DNA of 64,000 nt from Halorussus salinus (GTDB taxonomy: Archaea; Halobacteriota; Halobacteria; Halobacteriales; Haladaptataceae): the NCBI RefSeq assembly GCF_004765815.2, contig NZ_SBIS02000007.1, positions 1 through 64,000 on the forward strand. The letters are read 5' to 3'. The position numbers were made by a program, and so were the translations under genes. The notes under the pieces were generated by a model. That model saw only the letters and a program-made list of their open reading frames with translations, did no database searches and had not been told where the DNA came from. Below are positions 21,598-40,547 of the stretch, piece by piece; the stretch's first letter is position 1; each line of letters begins with the position of its first letter.

Positions 21598-21814
21598 CAG
21601 TAGCCTCCCTCATTCTTGCCGGTTTTTGCGAGGCCCACCGTATCACTATTTCCATTCAGTGACGAGCGCGGTCGGGTCACGGCCGAGTCGCGGCCGGTCG
21701 CGTGACCACCGAGAAATCTAGAAAAACGTTTCACAACGATATGTGATTCTTTTAGGGAGATATAGATACGGAAGAGCCGTCGGTCGTCCCGGTGCGGTCC
21801 GCGGGCGGGCCGCC

Positions 21815-22609: not shown

Positions 22610-22724
22610 GACGATTGACACGACTCCCATCCGTTTATGTCTACTTCCCGATTCTCCCCGCGTCTCGACGCCGACGAGCGCGATACCGACGAGTGCGACG
22701 CCGAGGAGCGACGGGGAGTCACGG

Positions 22725-23360
22725 TTACTCCCCGTCCAGTCGGAGCGTCACTTCGAGCGGCCCGTCCGACCGGTCGAACGCGAGCGACCCGGAGTACCGG
22801 AAGTCGTCGCGCGCCTCGCCACCGGCCGCTCCTCGGACCGTGTTGCCGTCGATGTCGTCGCCGTCGTCCGCGAAGTCGCCCTTCTCGACGTGGCCGCTCA
22901 CGCGGAACTTGTAGCGGACCGTCTCGCCCCTCGCTCGAATCGTGATGGTGTTGGGGAGGTCCCGGTCGTCGTTCGTCGTCTCCTCGAACAGGTCCCCGTC
23001 CACGAACACCTTCCCCGGCCCGTCGAGTCGCAGGTCGGTCGGGTCGCCGGTGAACAGCCAGCTGTCGCAACGCTCGTCGCTGACCGCGCCGCGCGCGGTG
23101 TTCTCGTCCACGATTTCGTCCCCGTCGTCGCTCTCGTAGGTCCCGCCGCGCTTCACCCGGCCGCTGACGCTGACCTCGTAGGAGAAGGTCTTCTCGCCCG
23201 CCGCACAGAAGGTAATCTCGCGCCAGCCGGTCGCGCCCGCGGTCCCGGCGACCCCGCCGCCCGCGAGACCCGCGGCCGCCGTCCCCTTCAACAGCGTCCG
23301 GCGGTCGAGACCGCCGGTCGAACTCGTCCGTCGGTTTTGCTCCTCGGATTGCTTGGTCAT
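22725..23360 (-). CDS. Tat-exported protein with two repeated beta domains
   Basis: The 211-residue protein has a Tat signal (LDRRTLLKGTAAAGLAGG, residues about 18-35). Two copies of a roughly 65-residue domain follow. Copy 1 contains YEVSVSGRVKRGGTYESDDG and DENTARGAVSDERCDSWLFT; copy 2 contains FRVSGHVEKGDFADDGDDID and GNTVRGAAGGEARDDFRYSG. It looks like a secreted or surface beta-sandwich protein arising from an internal duplication. Function unknown. Confidence 0.75.
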   Translation of the reverse strand: MTKQSEEQNRRTSSTGGLDRRTLLKGTAAAGLAGGGVAGTAGATGWREITFCAAGEKTFSYEVSVSGRVKRGGTYESDDGDEIVDENTARGAVSDERCDSWLFTGDPTDLRLDGPGKVFVDGDLFEETTNDDRDLPNTITIRARGETVRYKFRVSGHVEKGDFADDGDDIDGNTVRGAAGGEARDDFRYSGSLAFDRSDGPLEVTLRLDGE

Positions 23361-23581
23361 TGCTCGCACACCCCAGTCAATTCTCTGGAGCGCGACCCGT
23401 ATCAACCCGGTCGCTCGTCAAGTCGGATTCGGTCGCCTTGCGGACGAGTTAACGGGGATTCACCGCGATTCGCGCGAGAAACGCGGTGTTTCTGAAATCA
23501 AGTCCGGGTGGACCGCGCGACACGCCCGATTTCTCGGAGCGGGGCGGTCGGGACGAGCGCCGCAGAGTCAACGTCGTCGAA

Positions 23582-25162
23582 TCAGCGCCGCCAGTACGCG
23601 GGCGAGAGGACGACGAGGACCGAGAGAATCTCCAACCGGCCGATCCACATCAGAAACACCATGTAGAGTTTCGCGGCCGACGAGAACTTGAGGAAGCTGT
23701 TCATCGGGCCGACGATGCCCACGCCCGGTCCGACGTTGCCCAGCGTCGCGATGGACGCGCTCACCGCCTCGATAGCCGAGATGTCGAGCCCGATTCGGAG
23801 ACTGTCGAGGTACAACAGCACTGCCGAGGCCGCGAAGATGGAGATGAATATCATCACGAACACCAAGACGCTGCTCACCAAGTCGTCGTCGGCCACGTCG
23901 TCGGCCACCCTGATGGGACGGACCGCTTCGGGGTGAACCGACGTGAAGACCTCGCGGGACATCGCCTTCCGAATCAGGTACCAGCGGATTATCTTGACCG
24001 ACCCGGCCGCCGACCCGGCCGACCCGCCGAGGAACATCGCGAACAGGAGCGCGAGCTGGGTCGATTCGCCCCACGTGTTGAAGTCCATGCTGGCGTACCC
24101 GGTGGTCGTGACGATGGCCGCGGTCTGGAACGCCGCCTGCCGGAGCGCGTTCTCGAAGTCGCCCGCGAGCGGCGCGATTGCGGTCGGCACCTCCGCGAGT
24201 CCGGCACCGGTGAACAGCAACACCGTGAACAGCGCGGTGATAGCGCCCATCACGGCGAGATACGTTCGGAACTCCGCGTTGTGAGTCAGTCGCCGCGGCT
24301 CCCCCTCCGAGACGTACCAGAACAGTGCGAAGTTCGTCCCGGCGACGACCATGAAGAACGTAATCGCCCACTGGACGGCTGGCGAGAACGCTTCGGCGCT
24401 CCTCGCCTCGGGGGAGAATCCCCCGGTCGGGAGCGTGGTCAGCCCGTGAGCGACGGCGTTGTACAGGTCCATGTTCGGTGCCACTCCGGCGAGGTAGAGC
24501 CCGTAGTACACGCCCACTGCGGCAAGCGTGAACCACGCGTAGATGCCCCACAGCGCGCGGGCCGTGTCCTGAATCCGCGGCGTGAGCTTGTCGATGGACA
24601 GGCCGGGGGACTCCTCTCTGATGATTTGGGCACCGCCGACCGACAGCTCCGGGAGAATCGCCACCATCAGCACCAGTATCCCCATCCCGCCGAGCCACTG
24701 GGTCAACTGCCGCCACATGAGTATCGACCGCGAGTGGCGCTCGAACGATATCTCCCCGAGGACGGTCGAACCCGTGGTCGTGAACCCGCTCATGCTCTCG
24801 AACAGCGCGTTCACCGGGTGGGCGACCGTTCCCTGCCCCGCGATGAGGTACGGGAGCGTTCCGACGAGCGGGACGACGAACCACGTGAGACTCACGAACA
24901 GAAACGCCTCTCGGTGGCCGAGGTCCGGTTCCGAGTGCAACCCTTCGAGGGCCGCCCCCAGTCCGACCATCACGGCGGACGTTACCAGAAAGGGAACCGG
25001 ACTCTCGCCGTAGTAGAGCGCGACGGCGGTCGGCAAGAGGGGCGTCACCGCGAGATACTTCAGTACCCGTCCGAGGAGCGCCAGACTAGACAGGTACCCG
25101 ACAACATCGTCCAAATTCGATGTCCGGGTACCACCTACTGTCTCTAGAAGGTCGCGACTCAT
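23582..25162 (-). CDS. trkH: TrkH-family potassium transporter subunit (copy 2)
   Basis: The 526-residue paralogue of the TrkH at 18.7 kb keeps all four filter loops: SMSGFTTTGSTVL, LPTGGFSPEAR, TTTGYASMDFNTW and GNVGPGVGIVGP. Its N-terminus is extended and differs from copy 1. There is no dedicated TrkA next to it, so it may share the trkA at 20-21.6 kb. A TrmB-type regulator lies directly upstream on the same strand. Confidence 0.95.
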   Translation of the reverse strand: MSRDLLETVGGTRTSNLDDVVGYLSSLALLGRVLKYLAVTPLLPTAVALYYGESPVPFLVTSAVMVGLGAALEGLHSEPDLGHREAFLFVSLTWFVVPLVGTLPYLIAGQGTVAHPVNALFESMSGFTTTGSTVLGEISFERHSRSILMWRQLTQWLGGMGILVLMVAILPELSVGGAQIIREESPGLSIDKLTPRIQDTARALWGIYAWFTLAAVGVYYGLYLAGVAPNMDLYNAVAHGLTTLPTGGFSPEARSAEAFSPAVQWAITFFMVVAGTNFALFWYVSEGEPRRLTHNAEFRTYLAVMGAITALFTVLLFTGAGLAEVPTAIAPLAGDFENALRQAAFQTAAIVTTTGYASMDFNTWGESTQLALLFAMFLGGSAGSAAGSVKIIRWYLIRKAMSREVFTSVHPEAVRPIRVADDVADDDLVSSVLVFVMIFISIFAASAVLLYLDSLRIGLDISAIEAVSASIATLGNVGPGVGIVGPMNSFLKFSSAAKLYMVFLMWIGRLEILSVLVVLSPAYWRR

Positions 25163-25300: not shown

Positions 25301-26113
25301 TCACGACCCGTCGAACGAGAGCGGTTCGGCGGCCTCCCAGCGGGGCGCGAACGTCTCGCGGACGCCCGCCGCGAACTCGGGGTCTTTCATGTCTATCATC
25401 GCGAACGCCTCGCCCGGATTCAGGGGATTCGCGACCTCGATGCAGACTTCCACGTCGTCGATGAGGTTGAACGTGCCCTGCAACTCCTCGGCGGTCCGGA
25501 CCGCGAACTTCGGATGGTCCGAGAGCGTCTCGGTGTACCGCTGGCCGACGCTCGGGGGCAGGGTCTCCACCAGACTGGGCGTCATCAACAGCGAAATCTC
25601 GACGCCGCGGTCGAGCGCCGATTCGAGGTGCTGGGAGACGAGTTCGCCCACGTCGCCGATGTCGAACTGCGCCGACGAGTCGCCCGCGACCATCACGATT
25701 TGGTCGTCGGCCGCGTCGAGGCGTTCGACCAGCAGGTCGGTGGACTCCTCGGGACCGACCGCCGCGGTCCAGAAGCCCTCCTCGACCGGCTCGCCCGCGT
25801 CGAGTTCCTCGGTTAGCTCCTCGACTATCTCCTCGTACTGGTTGGCCTGCTCTTCGAGTTCTTCGAGTTTGTCGTCCAGCAAGCGATTGAGCGCGGTCTC
25901 GGGTTCGACCGCGACGTACTTCTTGGGACGACTCGCGCTCTGAGAGCGCGCGAGGTTGTGGGTCTCCAGACTGCTCAGTACGTCGTAGATGCGACCCATC
26001 GGTACCTCGCTCGCGCGCGATAGCTCCTTCGCGGTGGTCGGTCCCGCGTCCAACAGTGCCCGGTACGCCCGCGCCTCGTACTCCGAGAGTCCGAGGTCTC
26101 GTAGACTCGCCAT
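25301..26113 (-). CDS. TrmB-family transcriptional regulator
   Basis: The 270-residue protein starts MASLRDLGLSEYEARAYRAL, the typical TrmB winged helix, with PTTAKELSRASEVPMGRIYD as recognition region. A coiled-coil dimerisation stretch (LLDDKLEELEEQANQYEEIV) and a C-terminal ligand-binding domain (LLVERLDAADDQIVMVAGDS) follow. TrmB proteins usually sense sugars or other small molecules. Because trkH copy 2 lies 138 bases downstream on the same strand, control of that gene is possible but unproven. ATG 26113 gives the family's normal start. Confidence 0.92.
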   Translation of the reverse strand: MASLRDLGLSEYEARAYRALLDAGPTTAKELSRASEVPMGRIYDVLSSLETHNLARSQSASRPKKYVAVEPETALNRLLDDKLEELEEQANQYEEIVEELTEELDAGEPVEEGFWTAAVGPEESTDLLVERLDAADDQIVMVAGDSSAQFDIGDVGELVSQHLESALDRGVEISLLMTPSLVETLPPSVGQRYTETLSDHPKFAVRTAEELQGTFNLIDDVEVCIEVANPLNPGEAFAMIDMKDPEFAAGVRETFAPRWEAAEPLSFDGS

Positions 26114-26269
26114 GTAGGGGTTCAGACGCTCTGCCCTAATAAACTCTCGGACCGTTTTCAGTTGAAAGGGTGGAATCTCTCGCGATAGTCGGAGTCTCTC
26201 CTCCCGATTCGGGAAGCGGTTACCTACTCGCGTGGCGGGTCCTCCTCGGGAGAGACTCACGACCGAAGG

Positions 26270-26299: not shown

Positions 26300-27061
26300 A
26301 TGAACGGTACGGGAGATTTTTACGACCCAATCGCGCCGGCGTACGATCCGCCCACGATAGTGACCGGCGAGGAGGAAATAGCCGAGGATGTCCGCTTCTA
26401 CCGGGCGTTGGCTCGGGAAATCGACGGACCGACGTTAGAAGTCGGCGTCGGGACCGGACGTATCTACCTCGAACTGCTGGCCGACGGAATCGACATCGAC
26501 GGCATCGACGTTTCGTCGGCGATGATAGACCAACTTCGTGAGTACGCCGCGTCCTGCGACCTCGACCCGTCGGTGTGGGTCGACGATTTGCTCACGTTCG
26601 CCCCCGAACGGGAGTACGACCTCGTGTACGCACCCGAGGAGATACTCAACTTCTTCCCGTCGATGGCAGACCAGCGGACGGCTCTCGAACGGGTCCACGA
26701 CGCGCTCGCGCCGGACGGTCGGTTCGCCACCAACATGGGCGTCCCGCAGTTCGAGACCATCGCCGAGAACGACGGTCGAACCCTCGAACAGCACATCGAG
26801 GCGGACAGCGGCCACTACCGCATCGAGCGGACGGCACACTTGGAAGACGAGATAGAGCAGTTGGCTCGCATCGAACGCGAAGTCTACTGCGACGGGGAAC
26901 TGGTGGGGGAGCGCGAGACGATGATGTCGCTCATCTCGAAGCGACAGTGCGAGTTACTGTTCGAACTCGCCGGGTTTAGCGACTGGCAGGTGTACGGCGG
27001 GTTCGAGCGCGACCCGCTGTCGTCGTCCGACCAAGAGATGGTGTGGGTAGTCGAGGCGTAG
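26300..27061 (+). CDS. Class I SAM-dependent methyltransferase
   Basis: The 253-residue protein has the SAM-binding motif LEVGVGTGRIYLELL (about residues 48-62), the acidic strand end DGIDVSSAMI, and an APEEILNFFP motif IV region. It fits the small-molecule methyltransferase superfamily (Methyltransf_25-like). The substrate is unknown. It opens the accessory region that contains the lanthipeptide genes, but it is on the opposite strand and converges on the next gene, so involvement in that pathway is only a possibility. Confidence 0.87.
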   Translation: MNGTGDFYDPIAPAYDPPTIVTGEEEIAEDVRFYRALAREIDGPTLEVGVGTGRIYLELLADGIDIDGIDVSSAMIDQLREYAASCDLDPSVWVDDLLTFAPEREYDLVYAPEEILNFFPSMADQRTALERVHDALAPDGRFATNMGVPQFETIAENDGRTLEQHIEADSGHYRIERTAHLEDEIEQLARIEREVYCDGELVGERETMMSLISKRQCELLFELAGFSDWQVYGGFERDPLSSSDQEMVWVVEA

Positions 27062-27111: not shown

Positions 27112-28767
27112 TCACTCGTCGTCGCCGAGGAGCGCCCGGCCACCGACCACGGCCAACGCGGCGGCGACCAGCAGACCGGCGGCGATTAGCACCCCTGTCG
27201 TGCCCTCGGGCGGTCGAAGACTATTTGAGCCTCCGGACTTCGGGGCCGCACCGGCGCGTATCTCCGAGAGTTCCGCGACGCCGGGGGCGTTCACGAGAAC
27301 GACGGTGCGCCCGGTCCGGTTGACGTAGTAGGCGTCGCCGAACGAATCCCGTTCCGGAATCCGGTAGGTGTTCGTCCGGTCCTCGACCGCGGAGGCATTG
27401 TAGTAGGTGAGAAGCTCCCTGTAGCCGCTAACGAACTCCTCGCTGTCGTTCGCCGTCTCGAACGACAGCTTCCAGACGTACCCCGTCTCACCGGTCTCGG
27501 TCGCGTACGGGTAGAGCCTGTCGTCCTCCCACCCCGAGGCGTAGGGGTTGTCGCCGTACCGGTACGGGTCGAGGCGGTCGAGACCGTCGCCAGCGGAGTT
27601 GTAGAAGGTGCGAACCGGAAGTACCGCGGGGTGCTGGCGGTTCGTGTCGAAGACCGTGTAGACGAACATCGTCGTGATTCCCGGCATCCCGACCGAGGCG
27701 TACTTCGGCTGGCCGGTTTCGACCTCGGGTATTCGCCAGTTTTCGTCGCTCGTGTCGGTGAAATCGACGGTCGTCGGCTTTTCTGCGGGATACGCCTCGG
27801 GGTTCATCACCTGTTTCGTACTCGTCGGCGGCTGGTCGTAGAGTTGGTTGACGGCGTTCCAGCCGCCCGTCTCCTCGACCGCGTGGACGAAGTTGGGACC
27901 GTCGTAGTACGGATAGCTGTTCAGGAGCGCCATCCCAACGTGAGGGTCGGCCGACCCGTCGTCCCGTTCGGGAGCGGTCACGCAGTCCCACTTCGACTCA
28001 CACCGGTCGGCGTACTGCATCTGGACGTACTCGCTGTCGCCTTCTATGAGGCTGTTTATCGCGTTCTGAGACTCCGTGGTCCTGCGCAACTCGAAGGTCG
28101 CTAGCTCGAACCGGTCGGGGGCGTCGAACTGCTGGTTCTGAAGCACGTGGACGAGTTCGTGAGCCAGCAGTGGTTCGTTCAGCCTCGGACTTTCGGGGTC
28201 CTCGACGACGAACACCATCTCCTCGTCGGTCGGGCTGTAGTACCCTCGTGACCCGCCCGCGTTCGACTGAAGCACTTCGACGGCGTCGGTGTCTTCCCCG
28301 ACCATCAGCAGCGCCTCCCACTTCGCGTTCTTGCGGAGGGTCTCCGCCTCTGTCGCGACGAACCGCTCGTCGATGCGCTGCTCGAACGCCTGCGGCGAGA
28401 GGAACTCGATGCTCGGCTCTCCTTCGAACTCCAGACCGCGGACGGTTTCGACCCGAGCCATGGACCGGGCCACGACGGCCTCCAATTCGGTCGCGTTCAG
28501 CCCGTCGGTACCGTCCACGGCGATGGGTTCGTCGTACCAGCACCCGTTCTCCCAGCCGAGTTCGTCGCTCTCGGGGTCGGGGCGTCTCGACCCGTCTGAC
28601 GCGGGATTGCAGGCGTCCGCGTCGTCGATACGGGGCGCGCCGCCGACCGCCTCCGTCGCATCGACCTTCGGTGACGGACCCGACGCTTGGGTCGCCGCGA
28701 CGCCGGGGGCGACGGCGAGGCCGACCGTCAGAACGACGAAGGCGAGGAGCGGAAAGATTCGACGCAT
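27112..28767 (-). CDS. Hvo_1808-like surface protein with HELVH metalloprotease motif
   Basis: The 551-residue protein has an N-terminal signal peptide (FPLLAFVVLTVGLAVAPGVA) and a C-terminal membrane anchor (TTGVLIAAGLLVAAALAVVG) followed by a short acidic tail. The sequence LLAHELVHVLQNQQF contains HELVH at residues 203-207, a zincin-type motif. It resembles the haloarchaeal Hvo_1808 surface-protein family, named from memory. It probably sits outside the membrane and could be a metallopeptidase. It is downstream of, and co-directional with, the lanthipeptide genes, 111 bases from the esterase-like gene. Confidence 0.85.
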   Translation of the reverse strand: MRRIFPLLAFVVLTVGLAVAPGVAATQASGPSPKVDATEAVGGAPRIDDADACNPASDGSRRPDPESDELGWENGCWYDEPIAVDGTDGLNATELEAVVARSMARVETVRGLEFEGEPSIEFLSPQAFEQRIDERFVATEAETLRKNAKWEALLMVGEDTDAVEVLQSNAGGSRGYYSPTDEEMVFVVEDPESPRLNEPLLAHELVHVLQNQQFDAPDRFELATFELRRTTESQNAINSLIEGDSEYVQMQYADRCESKWDCVTAPERDDGSADPHVGMALLNSYPYYDGPNFVHAVEETGGWNAVNQLYDQPPTSTKQVMNPEAYPAEKPTTVDFTDTSDENWRIPEVETGQPKYASVGMPGITTMFVYTVFDTNRQHPAVLPVRTFYNSAGDGLDRLDPYRYGDNPYASGWEDDRLYPYATETGETGYVWKLSFETANDSEEFVSGYRELLTYYNASAVEDRTNTYRIPERDSFGDAYYVNRTGRTVVLVNAPGVAELSEIRAGAAPKSGGSNSLRPPEGTTGVLIAAGLLVAAALAVVGGRALLGDDE

Positions 28768-28878
28768 TATCTGTTCGAGTATCTACCATTGTTATATAAA
28801 ACATTTTATGTCCCGAAACCGCGGTGTTCCGGCGGGCGAGTCGGCCGATAGGTCCGGCCGTCTTCGGCGCTGGCGGCG

Positions 28879-30237
28879 TCACCCCCCGCCAACGGGATTC
28901 GAAGGAGTCGTCTCGGCGACGAATATTAGTCCGTCGAAGGCTCGCCGAGGAGCGACCGACGCGTAATTCTTCTCGGAGTCGCTGTGGTAGACCGCGCCGA
29001 CGTTGTGCAGGCACGACTCGCGGTCGACCCACGCACTGACGGTCGGGTCTTCCGGAGGAGACGACAGGTCGAGAAAACAGACGCGCTCGTCGGTCGCGTC
29101 CAGAACTGCCGGGAGCGAGCCGTCTGGACCCGTCTCCATCGAGTGCGGACGAATCACCGGGTCGTCGTCCGACGTTGGGTCCGAGACGGCCACGAATGAC
29201 CCCCGCCCGAACTCGAATCCGAGCGCGTAGTACTCGTCTCCGTACTCCCGGCGCAGGTGGTCGCCCATGGTCGTCGGCGACGTTGCCGTCCCGCCTTCGT
29301 CCCCGTGTCCGAACATCCCAGTTCCCGTCGTGACGTGGCCGTTGTGTGCCCAGAGTGCGAGACGCTCGCCGGGCGCGTGGTCGAGAATCCAGCGAACGTT
29401 CTCGGCCATGGCGGCGTCTCGCACGGCGTCGGGTGACGGATGGTCGTCGAGGAGTGCCGCCGTCGCGAACTCGTGGGCTTGTTCGATGAGTCTCCGGCGT
29501 CGTCGAGCCAGCCGCCACTCTCGGTCGCCGACCGCCGACCGGTAGGCCTCCTCGCGGCGCTCGAATCGCTCCGACAACTTCTCCCCGAGAGTCTTGGCGG
29601 CGAGTACTTGGTCGGGCGTACTCTCGCGGCCCTGTCCGAGCCAGTCGGCGTCCAACTCCGCGAAGTGAGGCCGGACCTCGTCGAGATAGTCGGGGTCGAC
29701 CCGTTCGAGGAACGACCGCAGAGCCCGTGCCGGTCCCCGCGTCGACCGCAGGTCGAAACCGTACACCCGCACGCGCTCGGACCGGGGACGTTCCTCGTTG
29801 TACTCGCGGAGCCATTCGACGAGTTCGCACATCTCCTCGGTCGCACAGGTCCAGTAGGACAGCGCCTCGACGGCCGCCTCCGGACTCCCCTCACCGTCGA
29901 CGACGTAGCGGTCGACCCGACGGGCCGCCCCGAAGTTCGCCTCCAGTCCGAGCGCCCGAAGGTCTCGTTCGGTCACCAAAAACTGGACGAGTCGGCGTTT
30001 CAAATCGAAGAACTCCTTCGTCCCGTGGGTCGCCTCACCGAGGGCGACGACGCGTCTCGTTGCGAGGGTCTCCCCGATCGACCGCAGGTCGTCGAGGGTA
30101 TCGGCGTCCGGGCGCTCTAAGGGAACCACACACTCGCCGAGCCGCCCGGCGAGGTCGGCGATGTCCGTCACCGTCTCGGCCCTCGCGAGCCGTCGGCGCG
30201 ACGGTGACGCCGGGTGTAGTGGCGGTGATTGGAGCAA
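28879..30237 (-). CDS. Erythromycin-esterase-family protein in the lanthipeptide operon
   Basis: The 452-residue protein has the family's VVALGEATHGTKEFFDLKRR block (E68 and H71) and LALWAHNGHVTTG, matching the EreA/EreB-like hydrolase fold that uses a Glu/His pair. The only suitable start is TTG at 30237; the nearby ATG at 30248 is in another frame. It begins 13 bases after the permease stop, so it is probably the last gene of the lanM-ABC operon. It may tailor or hydrolyse the peptide product or confer resistance; it could also be an unrelated esterase. Confidence 0.85.
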   Translation of the reverse strand: MLQSPPLHPASPSRRRLARAETVTDIADLAGRLGECVVPLERPDADTLDDLRSIGETLATRRVVALGEATHGTKEFFDLKRRLVQFLVTERDLRALGLEANFGAARRVDRYVVDGEGSPEAAVEALSYWTCATEEMCELVEWLREYNEERPRSERVRVYGFDLRSTRGPARALRSFLERVDPDYLDEVRPHFAELDADWLGQGRESTPDQVLAAKTLGEKLSERFERREEAYRSAVGDREWRLARRRRRLIEQAHEFATAALLDDHPSPDAVRDAAMAENVRWILDHAPGERLALWAHNGHVTTGTGMFGHGDEGGTATSPTTMGDHLRREYGDEYYALGFEFGRGSFVAVSDPTSDDDPVIRPHSMETGPDGSLPAVLDATDERVCFLDLSSPPEDPTVSAWVDRESCLHNVGAVYHSDSEKNYASVAPRRAFDGLIFVAETTPSNPVGGG

Positions 30238-30250
30238 CGAGTTGTCATGG

Positions 30251-31024
30251 TCAGTAGTCGTCTAAGAGACCCCTCCTCCGTGCGTGGTGCTGTGCGAGGT
30301 GGAACGAGAGGTAGCCGATGAGTACGTAGACGACCGTGGTTGACGCCAAGATGGCGTGGTCCAGTAGGGAAAACTCGAGGAGACCCCGTCCGTTGGCCAT
30401 CGCTTCGTGGAGCATCGCCGCGCCCTGTCCGACCGGGAGGAGTCGGGGCCAGAACTCGTCGGTCAGCGCCATCGAGATGATTCCGATGAACGCGAACTGT
30501 AGCATGGAGAACATCCCTCGAATCCGCTTGTAGACGAGCGCCACGCCCCCCAGAAGGAAACCGACGCCGATGGCGTGGAGGATAGTCAGCCCGAGGACCG
30601 GCACTATCGTGACCAAGTCGATAGTGAGGCTCTCGCCAGTCATCACGAGGATGAATCCGAGGGTGACGACGCTAATCACGATGCTGACGACCAGATTCGC
30701 CAAGACGGATGCCAGCATGACGACCGGGAAGGGGAACGGAGCGACGTACAACTGCTGGAGCGTGCCGTACTTGGCTTCGGTGTTTATCAGCCCCGAGAGG
30801 GTGTAGAAGGTGGCGAGTACGGTCGTCAGGAGAAAGTACCCGACGATGATGGCGTCGACGTTGCTCTCGAACCCCTCCGGTGCAATCGTTCGTCCGCCGA
30901 CGAACACTAAGCCGAACACCATCAGGTACGTCGCCAGCGTTCCCAAGAAGTTCAAGGGGTAGCGACGGAGTTCGATGAGGGTTCGACTCGCGAAGCCGTA
31001 CAAAAGGATAGGGTACTTATACAT
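30251..31024 (-). CDS. ABC-2 type transporter permease (lanthipeptide locus)
   Basis: The 257-residue protein has six predicted membrane segments. Examples are LNFLGTLATYLMVFGLVFVG near residue 30, IIVGYFLLTTVLATFYTLSG near 70 and VVYVLIGYLSFHLA near the C-terminus. ABC-2 permeases with this size pair with a soluble ATPase. Its start overlaps the ATPase stop by eight bases, so the two are translationally coupled. The pair probably exports the peptide product or gives self-protection. It has no peptidase domain, unlike bacterial LanT exporters. Confidence 0.92.
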   Translation of the reverse strand: MYKYPILLYGFASRTLIELRRYPLNFLGTLATYLMVFGLVFVGGRTIAPEGFESNVDAIIVGYFLLTTVLATFYTLSGLINTEAKYGTLQQLYVAPFPFPVVMLASVLANLVVSIVISVVTLGFILVMTGESLTIDLVTIVPVLGLTILHAIGVGFLLGGVALVYKRIRGMFSMLQFAFIGIISMALTDEFWPRLLPVGQGAAMLHEAMANGRGLLEFSLLDHAILASTTVVYVLIGYLSFHLAQHHARRRGLLDDY

Positions 31025-32048
31025 CGGTCGTGTCGTCGGTCGTCATTTCGAGGAACACGTCGCCGAGGTCGGGACGAATCGTCTCGAAGGTCCGGACGGT
31101 ACAGTCTATCTCGCGGAGTTCGTCCGACAGCGAGTGAACGTCCTCGTCGTACGTTATCTCGAACTCGTGGACCTCGCCGTACTGGTCGTGGTCGGTAACG
31201 TCGAACCGGGACCGGAGGGTCTCGACGGTCGAGGAGGGGACGGGCGCGTCCAGTCTGATCCGATAGGCGGTGGTCCTGAAGAAGTCGAGCAGGTCGGCGA
31301 CGGAGTCGTCGGCGATAACCCGTCCCTCTGAGAGAACGATTACCCTGTCGCAGATGTTCTGGATGACATCCATGTCGTGGCTGGTGAGAACGACCGTCAA
31401 ATCCTGATCCGCGACGAGCGACCGGATTTCGTCTTGGAGTTTGAGCGATGTCTCGACATCCAGCCCGAGCGTCGGCTCGTCGAGCAGCGCGACCTCCGCG
31501 GCCCGAGAGAGCGTACTGGCGATTGCCACCTTCTGTTTCTGCCCGCGAGAGAGTTTCCGAACCGGCACGTTGGCCTTCTCCGCGAGGTCGAGTCGCTGGA
31601 GGAGGGCGTCGTGGCGGTCGCGGCGGTCGGAGGCCCGAACGCCGTTCAGCCGGGCGAAAAACTCCAAGTTCTCCCGGACGGTCAGCCGCCAGTAGGCGTC
31701 CCGAGACCCCTCGAACATCGCACCGACCCTCTCGTGGGTCCACGCGAGGTTCTCGTGGACTTCCCGGCCGCCGAGCGTGACGGTTCCGGAGTCGGGAACC
31801 AGCGTCCCTAGCATCGTCTTGAGAGTCGTCGTCTTTCCTGCTCCGTTCGGCCCGAGTACTCCGACGACGGAGCCGGGTTCGATCTCGAACGAGACGCCGT
31901 CGACGGCCGTCACGTCGCCGCCGCCGAAGGTCATCGTGAGGTCATCTACCGCGAACGCGGGGCCTTCGGCGGCCACCTCCTCGCGCTCGGCGGTCTCGGC
32001 CGAAGACTCGGAGTTCGATCGACGTTGCGTTTCCATAACGCTATCCAT
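31017..32048 (-). CDS. ABC transporter ATP-binding protein (lanthipeptide locus)
   Basis: The 343-residue protein carries Walker A (GPNGAGKTT, about residue 70), the signature KLSRGQKQKVA and Walker B (VALLDEPTLGLD). A C-terminal extension of about 90 residues of the DrrA/CcmA kind follows. It starts 115 bases after the lanM stop on the same strand and overlaps the permease start. It energises the ABC-2 permease for export or immunity. Confidence 0.94.
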   Translation of the reverse strand: MDSVMETQRRSNSESSAETAEREEVAAEGPAFAVDDLTMTFGGGDVTAVDGVSFEIEPGSVVGVLGPNGAGKTTTLKTMLGTLVPDSGTVTLGGREVHENLAWTHERVGAMFEGSRDAYWRLTVRENLEFFARLNGVRASDRRDRHDALLQRLDLAEKANVPVRKLSRGQKQKVAIASTLSRAAEVALLDEPTLGLDVETSLKLQDEIRSLVADQDLTVVLTSHDMDVIQNICDRVIVLSEGRVIADDSVADLLDFFRTTAYRIRLDAPVPSSTVETLRSRFDVTDHDQYGEVHEFEITYDEDVHSLSDELREIDCTVRTFETIRPDLGDVFLEMTTDDTTDV

Positions 32049-32162
32049 CGTTCAACGGGTACTTTCACCCACCCAGTAATAAATTGTTAACATGATGCGA
32101 ACGTTTTCATCTGGCATCGTTCGCTGAGGGCGAGGGTCGCCCGCCGCTGGCCCCGACCCGAG

Positions 32163-35100
32163 TCACTCCAACAGCAGGACGCAGGGAAGCGACGGGTCCA
32201 CCGTCCTGAGAAGGGAGTAACCGATTCCCGCCTCACCGCCGAAGAATCCGGGGTCGTACCAGTGTTCGGTACCCCACTGCGTCGAGAACCCGCCAGCATC
32301 GTCGGCCCGCCGGACGCAGGCCCCCGCGAGTCGCTCGGCGTCGCGGCGAAGCGTCGGTTCGTCCAAGGACCGGGCGGCCCGCAGGAGGAGTTCGACCCGG
32401 CCGAAGTTGCCACAACAGACGTGGTCGGCGGCGAACGCCGTCGTCGGGTCGATGCCCCGGAGCGCACGCCGGGCGTCCGCGAGACGTGCGTCGGTCGTGT
32501 CCACTGCGTCGGTTCCCAGTCTGGCGAGACCGATTCCGGTCCGGCCGTGACACCAAGCGTCCATCGAGTCCGTCTCGCTCGTCGGTCGGAGGTCCGGCCA
32601 GTTCGTGGTCTCCTCGTCGAAGCGACGGCGCTCGAACGCGAGGCTTTCGGCGGCGACGGTTCCGAACCGCGAGTCGCCGGTCGCCGATTCGAGTCGAGTC
32701 AACGCGTACGCGATGCCAGCGGTTCCGTGAGAGAACCCACAGACGGGGCGTCCGACCGACGCCGGTGCCCACGTCGGCACCCCGTCGCGGTGGGTCGCAC
32801 TCTCCAACAGGTGGTCGCCAGCACGCCTCGCTCGGTCCAAGACCTCGTCGTCTCCGGTCGCTTCGTACAGCGAGACGAGTCCGAGTACGGCTCCGGCGCT
32901 TCCCTGTAGAACGTCGTACTGCTGGTCGGCGGCGATTCGCTCGTCGCCCAAGACGCCAGCGACCTGCTTCGCCCCGCGGAAATACTGCGAGTCGTCGAGC
33001 AGTTGTCCGACCTTCGTAAGCCCGTAGGCAATCGAGCCGAGACCCACGACCCCACCGACCGGACGCGGCGGGTAACGGGCGGATGTCGAGTCGTTCTCGA
33101 AGGTGTCGCTATCGAGGGCGTCGAGAATCGGGGCCACCGTCTCCCTCGCCAGACGCTCGTACCGCTCGTCGTCGAAGACTCGGGCGAGACCGGCGAGGAA
33201 GATGCCGATTCCGACTCGTCCGTCGTATAGCGCGTCGTCTATCGGAGCAACGTCGATTCCGCCGTCGGCCCCGACCCGCCGGAGGACCCAGACCGGGTCG
33301 CCGTCGTCACGTCGTGCGGTCGCCTCGATTCGGTCGAAGATACCCTCGGCGGTCTCCTCGACGAGCGTTTCGAAGTCCTCCCGACCGTCTCGTTCCGCTC
33401 GACCGTCTCGCCCGTGGTCGATTCGCGTCGTCTTCCCCGACCCGTGGGTCTCCACGTGGTCTCGGTACCCCCACCGGAGGTAGTCGCACTGTTCGTCGAG
33501 GTCGGTCCCGTCGAACGCCTCGATTCGGTCGCGTATCTGCTCCACCGGTGGCTGAACGAAGAAGTCGTCGAGAACGTGGTCGTCACCGTCGAGGAGGTCG
33601 GTACTCCGAAGTTCGGCGGTAAACCGAGGAGTACCGTACTCCCGAAGCGCGTCTCGCTCGGCCTCGTAGAGCGACCACACCGCCGGGTCTACGTCGTGGG
33701 CGACCACGAGTTTCGCCAGCACCTCCACTCGGGTCCCGAAGTTCAGTCCGTTTCGGAGGTGGTCGGCCGACCGCATCGCCGTGCGTATCCGGCCGTAGGC
33801 GACCGTCGGTCGGTACACGACTCGTACCCGTGCCTCTCTGTCGGTAAGCCGGTCTATCGGACCGCCCTCCGCCAGCATCGCGGCCTTGTTGTCGAGGACG
33901 AACCGGTACATCTCCTCGAACCCCCGAACGATGTCGTCAACGTGGGTCCGCGGCCCGACCACGGAACCGTCGTACACCGGCAGGTTCTCCCCCTCGCGGT
34001 CGGGGGTCGGCACGTTCTCCAAGTCCATCCGGTCGGTGTTGACGTTCGTGAACTGCTGGGTCTCGGCGTCGATACTGGCCTGATTCGTCGAGAAGCCAGC
34101 CATGTCGCCGACATCGCCGTCCGGAACGTGTCGGGGAACGACGCCGGTCCGAACCACGGTGTCCGCGACGACCTGAACGGCCTCGTTGATACGGCGCATC
34201 TCCGGCTTCGCGACGGGTTCCGTGACCGTCTCCAAGTCGATAGCCACGGGCTGGGACCCTACCGCGACGATGTTCTCCAAGTGCATGTCGGTCGCCGCGA
34301 ACGCGTAGAACAGACACATCAACATCCCCGCCCGGCGGTAGTACTCGGCGGGACCCTCGGGGTCGGTACACGCCGCCGGACGGACCCACTCCATCCACGC
34401 GTACTCCTCTCGATAGAGTACTTCGAGCGTCTGCAGAGGTGGCAGGTCGCCCCGTTCGTTTATCCACTCGACCAACTCGTAGAAGCCGACGACGATGCCC
34501 GCGTTCCGGGGTTTGTACCCGACGGTCGTCCCCGACTCGAAGGCGACCCGGAAGACCGCCCGTCCGCCGTTGTGGTGGTCGCCGAGGACCTCGATACCGG
34601 TCACCGCTCCCACGTCCTCCCCGTCGGCGAAGGTCCGACCGAGTTGCGACGAGTCGCTGGCCACGCGAGCGGTGAACTCCTCGACTCTGGCGCGCCACTG
34701 CCGGAGGACCGTCACCAGCAACCGACCGAGAAACGAGTACTCCGAGAAGAACGACCGCAGACGCTCCGCGGTCGCCATCTCCTCGACGAACTCGTCGTAG
34801 TATCGGGTCGCGCCCGGCTCGGGCATCTCGTCGCCGAGCACTAAATCCGGGTTCTCGTTCGCCACGTGGGTCTTGAAGTCGATGAACAGTGCCCGCGACC
34901 AGAGTCCCGTTACCCGAGTCGCCAGCCACCCGAACAGGTCGGCTACCGCCGACGACGAGAGCGGACCGGCCGAGTCGAGGTCTACTCGTGTCCGGGCGTA
35001 GCCCACGACCGGCTCCACCAAGTCCCGAAAGGGTAGCTCACGGTCGGCCGCTATCTCGACCTCCGGCGACGGGTTCTCGACGACGAACGCGACCAACTCG

Positions 35101-35384
35101 TCGAGTTCCTCGACCCAGCCCGGAAGCGGTTCGTCGTCCGGCCACCCGGCGACGGCCATCCGGCGACGACACTCTTGCTCGTCCAGTCCGTCACGTTCGA
35201 GGCGGTCACCGAACGCCTCGCGGTCGCCGTTGGCGACGCGCTCGCGCCACTCATCGAGTTGCTCGTCCAACGACGCTGTGATATCTTCGTCGCGGTCGGT
35301 CGCGTCGGGGTCGCATCCGAGTCGCTCCTGAAGCGTCCGCGCGTCCCCGGCAATCGACTTCTTTTCTTCCGTAGAAAATACCAT
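32163..35384 (-). CDS. lanM: Class II lanthipeptide synthetase LanM
   Basis: The 1073-residue bifunctional enzyme has an N-terminal dehydratase (DUF4135-like) with VGYKPRN (K291), TDMHLENI (D366, H368, E370, N371) and AIDLETV (D383, E385), the phosphotransfer/elimination residues that dehydrate Ser/Thr. The C-terminal LanC-like cyclase (about residues 720-1073) has DAWCHGRTGIG (C945) and HVCCGNFG (C990, C991) as zinc ligands. The third ligand is Cys instead of the usual His, the CCG type known from ProcM-like synthetases. Length is normal for LanM. The ABC exporter and esterase genes follow on the same strand, and a peptide candidate lies divergently upstream. Confidence 0.95.
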   Translation of the reverse strand: MVFSTEEKKSIAGDARTLQERLGCDPDATDRDEDITASLDEQLDEWRERVANGDREAFGDRLERDGLDEQECRRRMAVAGWPDDEPLPGWVEELDELVAFVVENPSPEVEIAADRELPFRDLVEPVVGYARTRVDLDSAGPLSSSAVADLFGWLATRVTGLWSRALFIDFKTHVANENPDLVLGDEMPEPGATRYYDEFVEEMATAERLRSFFSEYSFLGRLLVTVLRQWRARVEEFTARVASDSSQLGRTFADGEDVGAVTGIEVLGDHHNGGRAVFRVAFESGTTVGYKPRNAGIVVGFYELVEWINERGDLPPLQTLEVLYREEYAWMEWVRPAACTDPEGPAEYYRRAGMLMCLFYAFAATDMHLENIVAVGSQPVAIDLETVTEPVAKPEMRRINEAVQVVADTVVRTGVVPRHVPDGDVGDMAGFSTNQASIDAETQQFTNVNTDRMDLENVPTPDREGENLPVYDGSVVGPRTHVDDIVRGFEEMYRFVLDNKAAMLAEGGPIDRLTDREARVRVVYRPTVAYGRIRTAMRSADHLRNGLNFGTRVEVLAKLVVAHDVDPAVWSLYEAERDALREYGTPRFTAELRSTDLLDGDDHVLDDFFVQPPVEQIRDRIEAFDGTDLDEQCDYLRWGYRDHVETHGSGKTTRIDHGRDGRAERDGREDFETLVEETAEGIFDRIEATARRDDGDPVWVLRRVGADGGIDVAPIDDALYDGRVGIGIFLAGLARVFDDERYERLARETVAPILDALDSDTFENDSTSARYPPRPVGGVVGLGSIAYGLTKVGQLLDDSQYFRGAKQVAGVLGDERIAADQQYDVLQGSAGAVLGLVSLYEATGDDEVLDRARRAGDHLLESATHRDGVPTWAPASVGRPVCGFSHGTAGIAYALTRLESATGDSRFGTVAAESLAFERRRFDEETTNWPDLRPTSETDSMDAWCHGRTGIGLARLGTDAVDTTDARLADARRALRGIDPTTAFAADHVCCGNFGRVELLLRAARSLDEPTLRRDAERLAGACVRRADDAGGFSTQWGTEHWYDPGFFGGEAGIGYSLLRTVDPSLPCVLLLE

Positions 35385-35692
35385 AACGAATCTTAGTGTA
35401 TCTCGAAAAAGGCATACTGTAAAACAGTTTCGTTGTGATACAATTCGGGGTGACGCCGCGCCGCGACGAACGGGCCGTCGGCTACTACCACGTCGGCGTC
35501 GGCAATCGTGTCCGAAATCGGTCGGCTACGAATTTCAGCGTGGGGTTCTCATCTGCGGTGCTGTCGGTCCCGTCTTACTTTGCGCTACTATCTCTAGTCG
35601 TCCATCGAACAAACATGTGTGATTACATCAGTATAATCATAAATATAATTATAGAAAAATGTAAGTAATGCTCGGTATTTTACCTAAGTTGC
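35385..35692. other. AT-rich divergent promoter region between lanM and the precursor gene
   Basis: The 308-base space is much richer in A and T than its surroundings. A 13-bp palindrome (ACTGT-AAA-ACAGT, 35416-35428) lies 32 bases upstream of the lanM start. ATAAATATAATTATAG near 35639-35654 is a strong TATA-like stretch for the plus-strand precursor. A 77-codon frame at 35435-35668 exists but looks accidental. Confidence 0.5.
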
Positions 35693-35827
35693 ATGTCGTC
35701 AGATAGCCTAAAAGATCAGATCGAAGCGGCATACGAACAGGACGAGCGACCCGTCGAAGCGGGAACCGAACAGGCTGGCCAGATGACCGTCGCCTTCTGT
35801 GGCGGTCACTACACCAACCTCGAATAG
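35693..35827 (+). CDS. lanA: Candidate lanthipeptide precursor peptide (44 aa)
   Basis: The short frame encodes an acidic leader-like helix (SLKDQIEAAYEQDERPVEAG, residues 5-24), an AGQ segment at 28-30 and a C-terminal core QMTVAFCGGHYTNLE. The core has T32, a single Cys at 36 and T41. A methyllanthionine ring between T32 and C36, with T41 available for dehydration, would fit LanM chemistry. It lies 308 bases from lanM, divergently, behind an AT-rich promoter. The acidic leader is typical of class II precursors. No classic double-glycine site is present; cleavage near AG (28-29) is a guess. It is too short for routine gene finders. Confidence 0.7.
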   Translation: MSSDSLKDQIEAAYEQDERPVEAGTEQAGQMTVAFCGGHYTNLE

Positions 35828-36020
35828 TTCCCCGACCGCGAAGACGATGAACTGCGGGCCTCCGGCCTCGACCAGCGGACTGCGACAGTAGGGGTCGGAG
35901 GTCGGATATAGCGATGGAACCCCGAGCGATTCTGACGTGCTTGCGACGCGCTATCGCCTTCTGACTCGATGTATCGGATTCGATAGGCTTTTGTACCTCT
36001 ACGCTCGGCTTGGTTTAAGT

Positions 36021-37448
36021 ATGGTAAGCAGAGCAGATAGGGTCGCCGTGACGGTACTTGCCGCCAGCGTCCTCCTCGGTCTCGTCGCGGGAGCGGGAGG
36101 TGTGGCGGGCGACCGACCCAACTCGTCGGGGACCGCCGAACCGCCCACGACATCCACGCTGGTGGTTGCCGAGAACGGGAGCGGCAGTTACGAGTCGATT
36201 CAAGCAGCAATCGACGCGGCGTCACCCGGCGCGACGGTCGAGGTCCGACCGGGAACGTACGACGAACGACTCGTGATAGACTCGTCGATTACGGTGGTGG
36301 CTCCCGACGGCGCGACGCTAAACGGGGAGGTCCTGCCGGGTGAGGCGACGGCGCTCACGATTTCTTCGGGGAGCGGAGCCGAACCGGTAATCGACGGACT
36401 GACCATCACCAACTACTACGACGCCGTCTCGGCCAACGATACTGCTGGCGGGTGGACGCTCCGCAACGTCACTATCCGGAACAATCGGAACGACGGCGTC
36501 ATCGCCAACCGTGCGAGCGGCGAGTGGTCCATCCGCAACTCCACGATTCGGGAAAACGCCGACGAGGGGCTAGAGGCCGAGAACACCACCGGCGCGTGGA
36601 CGATACGCGGGACGAGTATCGCGAAAAACGAGGACGACGGCATCGACGTGGATGGCGCGGACACCACCGGTGCGTGGACGATTCGGAACTCGACTATTCG
36701 CCGGAGCGGGGACGACGCCATCGACGCCGACGAGGCGCAGGGTGCGTGGATGGTCCGAAACACGGTCATCAGCAACAACCGGAACGGTATCCAGATAATC
36801 GACGGTTCCGGGGACTGGACAGTCGCCGACAGCATTATTCGTAACAATACCGGATACGGCGTCTACGCGGGGAGCGGCACAGGAGACTGGACGATTCGCC
36901 ACACTCACTTCCTGTACAACGTGGTAACGAGCGTCCACGCCGCCGGAACCAGCGGCGACTGGGGGATTCGAAACACGACTATCCGCGATTCCAACGTCGG
37001 AGTCAACGCGAACTCCTCGACGGGCAACTGGACTATCAGTCGCTCCAGCATCCAGAACACGTCGGTTCCCAAGTTCGACTTGACCGGCGAGGGAACCGGC
37101 ATCTACGCTCCCAACTCAACGGGGGCGTGGACGGTCCGGCGGTCGAACATCGACGACAACGCCGAACACGCCATCGACGCGACCGGTTCGGCTACCCGAG
37201 GAGACGCGACTCGCAACTGGTGGGGCGCAGCGGACGGGCCGAGCGAGGGCGACTGCGTCGGGAGCGTGGACTGTAGCGCCTCGCTCTCGTCGTCCGCTCG
37301 CGTCCCGGACCCGCCGACGATAGGTTCGGACGCCGACGCCGATGCCGTGTCCAGCGACGGCGGCATCGGACTACTCTCGTTCGTCGTAGTCGGCGCACTT
37401 GCGGCCGTCCTGATTACGCTGACCGTGCTGACTCGACGGTACACCTAA
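36021..37448 (+). CDS. Surface-anchored right-handed parallel beta-helix protein
   Basis: The 475-residue protein has a signal peptide (VAVTVLAASVLLGLVAGAGG), about ten coils of the pattern GxWTIRNSTIRxNxxDGI across residues 70-420, and a C-terminal membrane segment (LLSFVVVGALAAVLITLTVL) ending RRYT. The repeats resemble pectate-lyase/NosD-type beta helices, but no catalytic site is evident, so binding or structural roles are likely. ATG 36021 is supported by the signal peptide directly after it and a TATA-like CTTTTGTA about 26 bases upstream. It lies 193 bases downstream of the precursor gene. Confidence 0.87.
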   Translation: MVSRADRVAVTVLAASVLLGLVAGAGGVAGDRPNSSGTAEPPTTSTLVVAENGSGSYESIQAAIDAASPGATVEVRPGTYDERLVIDSSITVVAPDGATLNGEVLPGEATALTISSGSGAEPVIDGLTITNYYDAVSANDTAGGWTLRNVTIRNNRNDGVIANRASGEWSIRNSTIRENADEGLEAENTTGAWTIRGTSIAKNEDDGIDVDGADTTGAWTIRNSTIRRSGDDAIDADEAQGAWMVRNTVISNNRNGIQIIDGSGDWTVADSIIRNNTGYGVYAGSGTGDWTIRHTHFLYNVVTSVHAAGTSGDWGIRNTTIRDSNVGVNANSSTGNWTISRSSIQNTSVPKFDLTGEGTGIYAPNSTGAWTVRRSNIDDNAEHAIDATGSATRGDATRNWWGAADGPSEGDCVGSVDCSASLSSSARVPDPPTIGSDADADAVSSDGGIGLLSFVVVGALAAVLITLTVLTRRYT

Positions 37449-38314: not shown

Positions 38315-40144
38315 CTACTCGGTCAGGTCCGCCACGCGCTCGCTTAGCTCCTCGGGCGTCGTCACCGGCTCGGAACGCTCGCCGTCCACGACGACCACGG
38401 CGCTTCCCTCCCCGACCTCATCGCGTACCGCAGCAGCGCCCGGAATCACGACCTTCTCGTGGTCGGCGACCCGCATCGCGGCACGGTGGAGGTCCGACCC
38501 GGCCTCGTCGGCGACTTCGACGACGAGCGGGTCCCGGCAGAGTCGCGCCGCCGCGGTGGCGTAGGCCGCGACCTGCACACCGAGGCGGTCGGCCGCGTCG
38601 GCGAACGCCGCGATGGCCTCCTCGGCGGCCTCCCGATAGCGGTTCTCGCCGGTGAGAATCGCGAGGTCGGTCAGCGCGTCGGCGAGTTCGGCGTTGTGGT
38701 CCAGCGGGCGCAGGGGTCGGTCCAGCAGGCCCGGTCCCTCGCGGGGGCCGTCCACGAACGCGCCGGACGGCGACGAGTCGCCGTCCGCGTCGGTCTCGCC
38801 TGCATCGGTCTCGCGCAACTCGGCCAGCGCGTAGTCGGCCACCTCCCGCGCCGCGTCGAGGTATCGCTCGTCGCCCGTGACCTGCCGGGCGGTCGTGAGT
38901 GCGGTCAGGAGGTGGCTCTGGTCCGCGAGGAGTCCGGTCTCGCTCTCCTCGGCGTCGCCCGCCGCCGCGGCGTCGAAGTGCGTGACCGCGCCCTCCTCGA
39001 CCAGTTCGGTCAGCACGTAGTCGAGCGCGCGCTCGGCGTAGGTTCGGGCGCGCTCGTCGTCGGTGTAAGCGTAGTAGGTCAGGAGCGCGTCGGCCGCCAT
39101 CGCGTTCCAGTCGGCGAAGGCGGTCGGGTCCACCGGGGGCGCGTCGGCGGCCTCGCGGTCGCTCGGCGCGAGGTCGTAGTAGTCGGGTTCGGTGTCGTCC
39201 GATTCCGGCGACTCGTCCGCGTCGGCCTCGTTCGCGTCGGCCTCGTTCGCGTCGGCCTCGTTCGCGTCGGCCTCGCCCTCGTCTCCGCTCTCCGGCACGT
39301 CCGGCGAGTCGCCGGGGGCCTGACTCCCCGCGAAGGCGTCGATGTCGCCGTTCCAAAGCGTCGTCGTCAGGTACTCGATGGCGCGCTCGGCCGGGGCGCG
39401 GTAGTCGTCGTCGCCGGTGTAGAGGTAGGCGTTGGCGAACGCCCGGACCAGCGCGGCGTTGGTCGAGAGCAGTTTCTCGTGGTGGACCTCCGACCAGTCG
39501 CGGCCCTCCGCGAACCGGAAGAAGCCGCCGTCGTAGTCGTCGGCGAGGTACTGGCTCACGGCTTGTAGCGTCCCGAGCGCCTGCTCGCGCTCGCGCTTCA
39601 GCGCGAACTCGACGGTCCGGGGGAGCGGGAACTTCTCGCTGTCGCCCCACCCGCCCCACTGCTCGTCGAACTTCTCGCCCAACTGCCCGGCGACCAACTG
39701 CTCGATTTCGGGGGATAGTTCGCCCGCGGGCGGGTCCTCCCGGAGGCTCCGCGGGATGCGCGCGGCCTCCTCGCCCTTGTGGCTCCAGAGGTCCCGGACG
39801 CGCTGGACGACCTGTCGCATCCCGTCGATGCCGAGGTAGGTCGCGCCCGTCAACAGGTCGCCGTCGGGCGTGCAGAAGACCGTCGAGGGGAACCCGCCCA
39901 CGTTGTACCGCTCGCGGACCCGCGGCTGGCGGTCGATGTCCACCCGAACCGGCACGAACGAGTCGTTGACGTTCGCGGCGACCATCGGGTTGCTGTACGC
40001 CTCGCGGTCCATCTCGTGACACCACGAACACCACGTCGCCGACAGCGAGACGAGGACCGGCTTGTCTTCGTCGCGGGCCTCCTCGAAGGCGGCCGCGCCC
40101 CACTCGCGCCACTCGACTTTGGTCTCCTCGGCGCTTTCGTTCAT
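38315..40144 (-). CDS. Thioredoxin-domain protein of the DUF255/YyaL family
   Basis: The 609-residue protein starts MNESAEETKVEWREWGAAAF. The N-terminal thioredoxin-like domain has the redox motif in SATWCSWCHEMDREAYSN, followed by an alpha/alpha-barrel-like glucosaminidase fold. A low-complexity insertion rich in EADAN (about residues 288-310) interrupts the second half. The family (spermatogenesis-associated protein 20-like) has no firmly known function. The ATG at 40144 is selected over an upstream one (40276) whose extra residues are unrelated to the family start. Confidence 0.93.
   Translation of the reverse strand: MNESAEETKVEWREWGAAAFEEARDEDKPVLVSLSATWCSWCHEMDREAYSNPMVAANVNDSFVPVRVDIDRQPRVRERYNVGGFPSTVFCTPDGDLLTGATYLGIDGMRQVVQRVRDLWSHKGEEAARIPRSLREDPPAGELSPEIEQLVAGQLGEKFDEQWGGWGDSEKFPLPRTVEFALKREREQALGTLQAVSQYLADDYDGGFFRFAEGRDWSEVHHEKLLSTNAALVRAFANAYLYTGDDDYRAPAERAIEYLTTTLWNGDIDAFAGSQAPGDSPDVPESGDEGEADANEADANEADANEADADESPESDDTEPDYYDLAPSDREAADAPPVDPTAFADWNAMAADALLTYYAYTDDERARTYAERALDYVLTELVEEGAVTHFDAAAAGDAEESETGLLADQSHLLTALTTARQVTGDERYLDAAREVADYALAELRETDAGETDADGDSSPSGAFVDGPREGPGLLDRPLRPLDHNAELADALTDLAILTGENRYREAAEEAIAAFADAADRLGVQVAAYATAAARLCRDPLVVEVADEAGSDLHRAAMRVADHEKVVIPGAAAVRDEVGEGSAVVVVDGERSEPVTTPEELSERVADLTE
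39227..39285. repeat. 15-bp in-frame repeat encoding EADAN
   Basis: Four near-identical copies of GCGTCGGCCTCGTTC (plus strand) encode the acidic EADAN repeat on the minus strand. As a multiple of three, the repeat can expand or contract without frameshift. Confidence 0.85.
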
Positions 40145-40547
40145 TCTACGTCGGAGTTGGGAGCGGGTCGGGATGGGTCTTGCTATGTCGGCGTTTCGCG
40201 GTGACTTTGCGGTTGGTTCGGAGTTCGGTTCGTGATTTGGGGTGTCTCTTGGGCGATGCGAGTCGGTCAAGTTCACCTGTCGAGAGACAGGAAGAAGTTC
40301 CGAAAGAAGCTAGCTTCAGGCTTGAACATGGGAGTCTCCCGCCACCGCACAGCACCGCACCTCGTCCTCCCCAACCTCCTCACTCCCTCGTTTCACTCGG
40401 TCGTTCGTCCCTCGCGCGGTTGGCGCGTCGCCCACGGCGACGCGTCCGCACGCGCCGAGTCGGAATAGACATCCGAAACCCGACTAACCCCGCGAGCGAA
40501 TCGCGCCGAGCGAGACGCTTACGGTCCCCCGCCACGAAGGGCGAGGC
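40145..40547. other. 403-base gene-free region with a foldable segment
   Basis: No convincing coding frame is seen. Bases 40271-40327 can fold: GTTCA and TGAAC as closing stem, CCTGTC-GAGA-GACAGG (40276-40291) as a hairpin with a GNRA loop, and GAAGCTAGCTTC (40306-40317) as a palindrome. The rest is C-rich without obvious structure. It could be a small RNA or part of a decayed mobile element. Confidence 0.4.

Follow-up and report, generated by a model that had tools for sequence, protein, structure and literature searches.

How does an archaeon mature a lanthipeptide when the exporter beside the synthetase carries no recognizable protease? The question is raised by a gene cluster of Halorussus salinus (assembly GCF_004765815.2, contig NZ_SBIS02000007.1, positions 1 to 64,000; this whole stretch of 64,000 nucleotides is called the window here), in which an earlier note, made from the letters of the DNA, had placed a class II lanthipeptide locus at 28879-35827. 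Our reading is that a class II locus would make a peptide with one ring, that an ABC-2 transporter would export it, and that hydrolases encoded in the locus would trim it; we give this whole model a probability of about 0.72. The analysis adds an independent check on the precursor, extends the boundaries of the locus, and reveals a conserved cassette in which two hydrolases are candidates for maturation.

The synthetase and its precursor

The gene lanM (32163-35384, minus strand) encodes a class II lanthipeptide synthetase of 1073 amino acids, which scores 727.5 bits against TIGR03897 (cut-off 304). A dehydratase domain (PF13575, DUF4135; residues 216-590) is followed in the same chain by a cyclase domain (PF05147, LANC_like; residues 714-1068), and the solved structures nearest to it in a sequence search are LicM2 and CylM. 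The motifs of both domains are intact (DMHLEN...DLE, RVVYRPTVAY, WCHG, and VCCGNFG, the last a zinc motif of the CCG type); the roles of these residues we take to be those generally known for CylM. That a Halorussus LanM has the CCG motif has been remarked on earlier (PMC10027976).

Divergent from lanM lies lanA (35693-35827, plus strand), which encodes a 44-amino-acid precursor, MSSDSLKDQIEAAYEQDERPVEAGTEQAGQMTVAFCGGHYTNLE, with a leader block K..IE..YE and the core motif MT[VI]AFC. The AT-rich intergenic region between the two genes (35385-35692) is presumed to hold both promoters, and a TATA-like ATAAATATAAT for lanA can be read in it; our promoter scan covered bacterial-type promoters only. 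The gap holding lanA has a guanine-cytosine (GC) content of 50-52%, as against about 62-67% on both flanks.

Is such a short open reading frame (ORF) a real precursor? A hidden Markov model (HMM) of the leader was trained on 13 LanAs found beside other archaeal LanMs, with the window ORF and its closest homologue excluded, and it ranked the window LanA first among 368 small ORFs of the window (E=3e-6; runner-up 0.05). The closest homologue (L061:4422-4559, minus strand), which lies beside an orthologous LanM in the genome G134, aligns to it with a tblastn E-value of 1e-7 and with z=17.6 versus shuffles. The MT[VI]AFC motif is common to the two peptides, and the sequence after the Cys diverges. 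The leader, LKDQIEAAYEQDERPVE, also resembles those of archalan beta (LRTEVEAEYKHADHDVP) and of a peptide encoded beside another LanM (LKAQFEDKYARDEPTI). Because the held-out model ranks it first and its homologue adjoins an orthologous LanM, the identification of the ORF as a true LanA rather than a chance ORF is supported, as is the earlier claim of a divergent precursor in an AT-rich gap. Together with the family and domain matches of LanM, these results also support the proposed class II lanthipeptide locus, the mature product of which is predicted to contain (methyl)lanthionine.

Conservation and limits of the locus

Among 392 Halobacteriales genomes, 36 of which carry a LanM at E<=1e-60, only G134, from another family, has a LanM at about 50% identity to that of the window. 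A genus-level sample had no LanM more than 41% identical over its full length, and a LanM search of a collection of genome contigs returned two remote bacterial loci only. When a LanA profile was run against the 392 order-level and 125 family-level genomes, the same core was found only in G134, the matches in G176 covering just the half with the leader. In G176, one LanM is accompanied by three LanA genes in a row (L067:9457-10049, minus strand), two of them with near-identical cores (PKDSCWSSSC).

The G134 precursor, MARNSQAKKRIESMYEREEPTVEGGNDRAGHMTIAFCYDTSPDLH, is likewise divergent from its LanM. A gene of the erythromycin esterase/TIKI superfamily (Ere) directly follows LanM, a gene of the Hvo_1808 surface protein family lies between lanA and lanM, and a gene for a beta-helix protein adjoins lanA. 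All have counterparts in the window locus (LanM 50% identical, LanA with MTIAFC, Ere 42-44%, Hvo_1808 43%, and beta-helix 38%), and the LanM, Ere, and Hvo_1808 proteins are mutual best matches among the copies compared. The gene order is different, however, and G134 has a single-polypeptide ABC exporter (635 amino acids) where the window has an ABC-2 pair, so that the genes in common cannot be put down simply to the recent copying of one unbroken segment. The conservation check among haloarchaeal relatives that the earlier note had recommended was run, and it shows that LanM and a homologous precursor recur together in G134, in a locus with a different gene order.

The conserved locus spans 27112-37448, with both surface-protein genes included, so that the limits first drawn, 28879-35827, hold the core genes and are too narrow. 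Three further genes were considered as cluster members and rejected, as none has a homologue near any other LanM examined: a methyltransferase (26300-27061), a TrmB-like regulator (25301-26260), and a DUF255 protein (38315-40276). Elsewhere in the window are TrkA- and TrkH-type potassium uptake genes (20254-25162, minus strand) and a gene (42794-43822, plus strand) whose product combines DUF4352 with an Mrr-type restriction endonuclease domain.

Proposed export and leader removal

In bacteria, the usual exporter is LanT with an N-terminal C39 peptidase, which is not required in archaea. The window encodes instead a DrrA-like ABC ATPase (31017-32048, minus strand; PF00005; best NCBIfam model drrA, below its cut-off) and an ABC-2 type permease, the presumed peptide exporter (30251-31024, minus strand; PF01061, 28.4 bits vs. 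a cut-off of 26.9), their genes overlapping by 8 bp. Of 26 other archaeal LanM loci, 11 have homologues of the ATPase nearby, and the ATPase/permease pair recurs near other LanMs. Neither protein of the window pair has a Pfam match to C39 or any other peptidase family; none was seen in the G134 exporter either, although the Pfam scan covered the window pair only. The earlier conclusion that leader removal needs another protease is consistent with this, and two candidate hydrolases for the step can be named.

The first candidate is the Ere gene (28879-30237, minus strand; PF05139, E=4e-73), on the same strand as the full-length lanM and the ABC-2 pair, just as the earlier note had it. Its start codon is uncertain: a TTG would begin 13 bp after the permease gene, and a GTG further in, near 30171, is an equally likely start. 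Inspection by eye revealed no evident signal peptide, and the protein is presumed to be cytoplasmic. The AlphaFold model (predicted local distance difference test, pLDDT, 87) is matched by Foldseek (entries 3b55/2rad/6xcq) to Bcr135 (E=6e-31, TM 0.78) and also to EreC, and E68, H71, E99, and H298, as assigned by alignment to Bcr135, are invariant among 19 homologues. Fold and 2His/2Glu site thus place the protein in the erythromycin esterase/TIKI superfamily. Enzymes of this kind reportedly cleave both esters and peptide bonds by means of that site (PMC6254334), and since the superfamily includes endopeptidases, a peptide substrate would be reasonable by analogy. A role in macrolide resistance found no support, the NCBIfam scores being 55 bits vs. 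a cut-off of 800 (EreD), 53 vs. 750 (EreB), and 37.7 vs. 750 (EreA).

Ere is found in 60 of the 392 genomes and in 8 of the 36 with LanM; in 3 of those 8 (the window genome, G134, and G162) it lies less than 2 kb from LanM. In G162 (L088), it sits between an ABC pair and the LanA/LanM genes of a different precursor type. Under a simple uniform-placement model, 0.05 Ere-LanM pairs within 3 kb are expected against 3 found (P about 2e-5), or 0.026 against 2 (P about 3e-4) when the window genome is excluded. The adjacency in two further genomes bears out the suggestion that the esterase-like gene belongs to the locus. A second Ere-family gene of the same genome (G000:C5:469806-471125, L107; 39%) lies away from any LanM.

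The second candidate is a 551-amino-acid surface protein of the Hvo_1808 family (27112-28767, minus strand; NF038145, 516 bits), a candidate surface protease. Its N-terminus is hydrophobic, and it ends in a hydrophobic anchor at the C-terminus. It has gluzincin-type residues, H203-E-L-V-H207 and an invariant distal E242. In the structure aligner, which was given a pLDDT 72 model, residues 92-329 align with 3cmn at Z 11.3 and, more weakly, with the peptidase domains of clostridial collagenases (Z about 7; collagenase H, Z 7.5) and thermolysin (Z 6.2), matches that would be consistent with a zincin. The HExxH motif is kept in all three LanM-linked copies (window, L061, and L070), the last from a third LanM locus, in G016, where some 1.2 kb separate the Hvo_1808 gene from LanM. 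Eight of 20 aligned paralogues (L089, L092, L093, L096, L097, L098, L099, and L102) have QExxH in its place, which suggests that this group has lost protease activity. At the other end of the locus, a right-handed beta-helix (NosD-like) surface protein (36024-37448, plus strand; PF13229, PF05048) is a conserved neighbour; its homologue beside the G134 lanA is 38% identical over the full length (246 bits), and any other match in five genomes scored below 80 bits.

From these parts, we infer the following order of steps. LanM would bind the leader of LanA via the K..IE..Y block, dehydrate Thr32 to dehydrobutyrine (Dhb), and join Cys36 to the Dhb, so that a core near GQMTVAFCGGHYTNLE would carry a single methyllanthionine ring. 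The ABC-2 pair would export the modified peptide and, because this exporter is without a C39 protease, trimming would be performed by hydrolases of the locus, i.e., by the Ere/TIKI enzyme inside the cell, by the membrane-anchored, zincin-like Hvo_1808 protein at its surface, or by both, with the beta-helix protein as a conserved partner. The calculated [M+2H]2+ values after loss of one water are 890.893 for the C-terminal fragment AGQMTVAFCGGHYTNLE, 855.374 for GQMTVAFCGGHYTNLE (GQMTV...), 826.863 for QMTV..., and 762.834 for MTV....

Would a peptide of this kind be made at all, and with this ring? LanA has one Cys and hence one ring at most, and the Thr32-Cys36 ring is the most likely one, since the spacing of the two residues is conserved in the homologue. 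The ring could run the other way, from Cys36 onto Thr41 (CGGHYT), as archalan alpha (Cys2-Thr5) and sallan (Cys1-Ser5) both have proven Cys-first rings (PMC10105419, PMC12144867); we find this improbable, as the homologue keeps the Thr32-x3-Cys36 spacing and its neighbours but not the tail after the Cys. More improbable still is a silent or decayed cluster that makes no peptide. The main text of two papers on the strain reports products for four sibling loci, and none was found there for this one, but all genes of the locus are open with intact catalytic motifs, and certain sibling peptides, missing from cultures of the wild type, came to light only when expressed heterologously (PMC12144867).

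The hydrolases are where the model is most exposed. Ere may be an immunity or detoxifying enzyme, with general haloarchaeal proteases removing the leader, and of the alternatives this is the one we take most seriously, though we think it less likely than not. The named Ere enzymes are resistance hydrolases, a graspetide survey noting Ere homologues in loci for ribosomally synthesized and post-translationally modified peptides (RiPPs) leaves modification or resistance open (PMC8939145), and Ere is missing from most archaeal LanM loci examined, yet proven archaeal lanthipeptides get trimmed. It also adjoins LanAs with unrelated cores (MTVAFC in the window and G134, SCVLPC..CC in G162), although an enzyme directed to the leader should be just as indifferent to the core; and because the thioether of a lanthipeptide is no ester, immunity by Ere would still need amide hydrolysis. 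Several further points weigh against the proposed model. Sallans and other peptides have been produced in Haloferax volcanii with no dedicated protease known, so that the proteases of a host can be enough (PMC12144867), and the full five-gene cassette (LanM, LanA, Ere, Hvo_1808, and beta-helix) occurs in only one other genome. As for the Hvo_1808 protein, Foldseek returned no match at E<=0.001, the structural model is only moderately confident, and the best aligner Z for a known zincin is about 6-7.5. The family has 76 copies in the 36 LanM genomes, every genome checked having one, its association with LanM is modest, at 3 of 27 loci (P=2e-3) or, once the window is left out, 2 of 26 (P=0.02), and the tree that unites the window and G134 copies (95/88) joins long branches. 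Both surface proteins could be neighbours without a role for the peptide, e.g., hitchhikers on one transferred island. We consider this rather unlikely, as the content is kept while gene order differs between the window and G134, the G016 locus pairs an Hvo_1808 gene with LanM, and a search of five genomes turned up nothing comparable to the beta-helix protein elsewhere.

A stricter form of the model, in which one archaeal lanthipeptide group has the Ere/TIKI enzyme and a surface-anchored Hvo_1808 metalloprotease as its dedicated peptidases for the leader (or ring), is doubtful. If true, it would be a way of maturing lanthipeptides of which the searched literature has no description (no paper there ties Ere-family or Hvo_1808 proteins to lanthipeptides, and one graspetide survey mentions Ere homologues), and it might bear on the trimming, so far unexplained, that archaeal DADC lanthipeptides undergo. 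Leader loss in archaea has been ascribed to unidentified proteases encoded outside the clusters (PMC12144867). At the present locus, two specific candidate hydrolases accompany LanM, and the substrate would be a minimal one with a single ring; the strain is in culture and has proven sibling products. Comparisons of archaeal clusters should cover the neighbourhood of the synthetase and not only LanM and LanA.

Relation to known systems

The source genome (4.75 Mb) has six LanM genes, pieces of some of them being listed separately, and it encodes the precursors of sallan (CTRYSF) and archalans beta (GLPSASMYSFEHCC), alpha (GCGFTCSPFSSW), and gamma (CSCYTRICCDIDS), each in a LanM locus. Archalans alpha, beta, and gamma and sallan have been published from H. 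salinus YJ-37-H, for which six lanthipeptide clusters were reported (PMC10105419, PMC12144867); from the four exact precursor matches, the genome appears to be in effect that of this strain. The lanthipeptide class is thus already known, and the window locus probably is too, in silico, for the strain. It would be one of two among the six clusters without a product in the main text of those papers. Another LanM locus of the same genome (L013:7977-8129, minus strand; G000:C1:481000-493000), with a candidate LanA MARDISQSLESQYEPSHTETDDRAVIGETNCYLSTDPICGSSGEDDEMEF, also has no product in that main text. Archalan alpha inhibits haloarchaea (PMC10105419) and other archaeal lanthipeptides affect motility (PMC12144867); by analogy, the window product might be an antagonist, as archalan alpha is, or serve some other purpose.

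How, then, does the window locus compare? Like its siblings in YJ-37-H, it has a LanM of the same class with a CCG motif and a short acidic leader of the form K/R..[IVF][DE]..[YF], and the sal and archalan gamma loci have a homologous ABC pair. It differs in that its LanM is only 31-40% identical to theirs, its core has a single Cys (MTVAFC...), and its Ere- and Hvo_1808-family partners were not detected in the sibling loci. The Ere protein shares fold and 2His/2Glu residues with Bcr135, EreC, and the endopeptidase members of the superfamily, at 20-25% identity. ProcM-like synthetases, finally, have the same Cys-Cys-Gly instead of Cys-His-Gly at the zinc site, but they serve dozens of precursors, whereas the window LanM has one precursor gene nearby.

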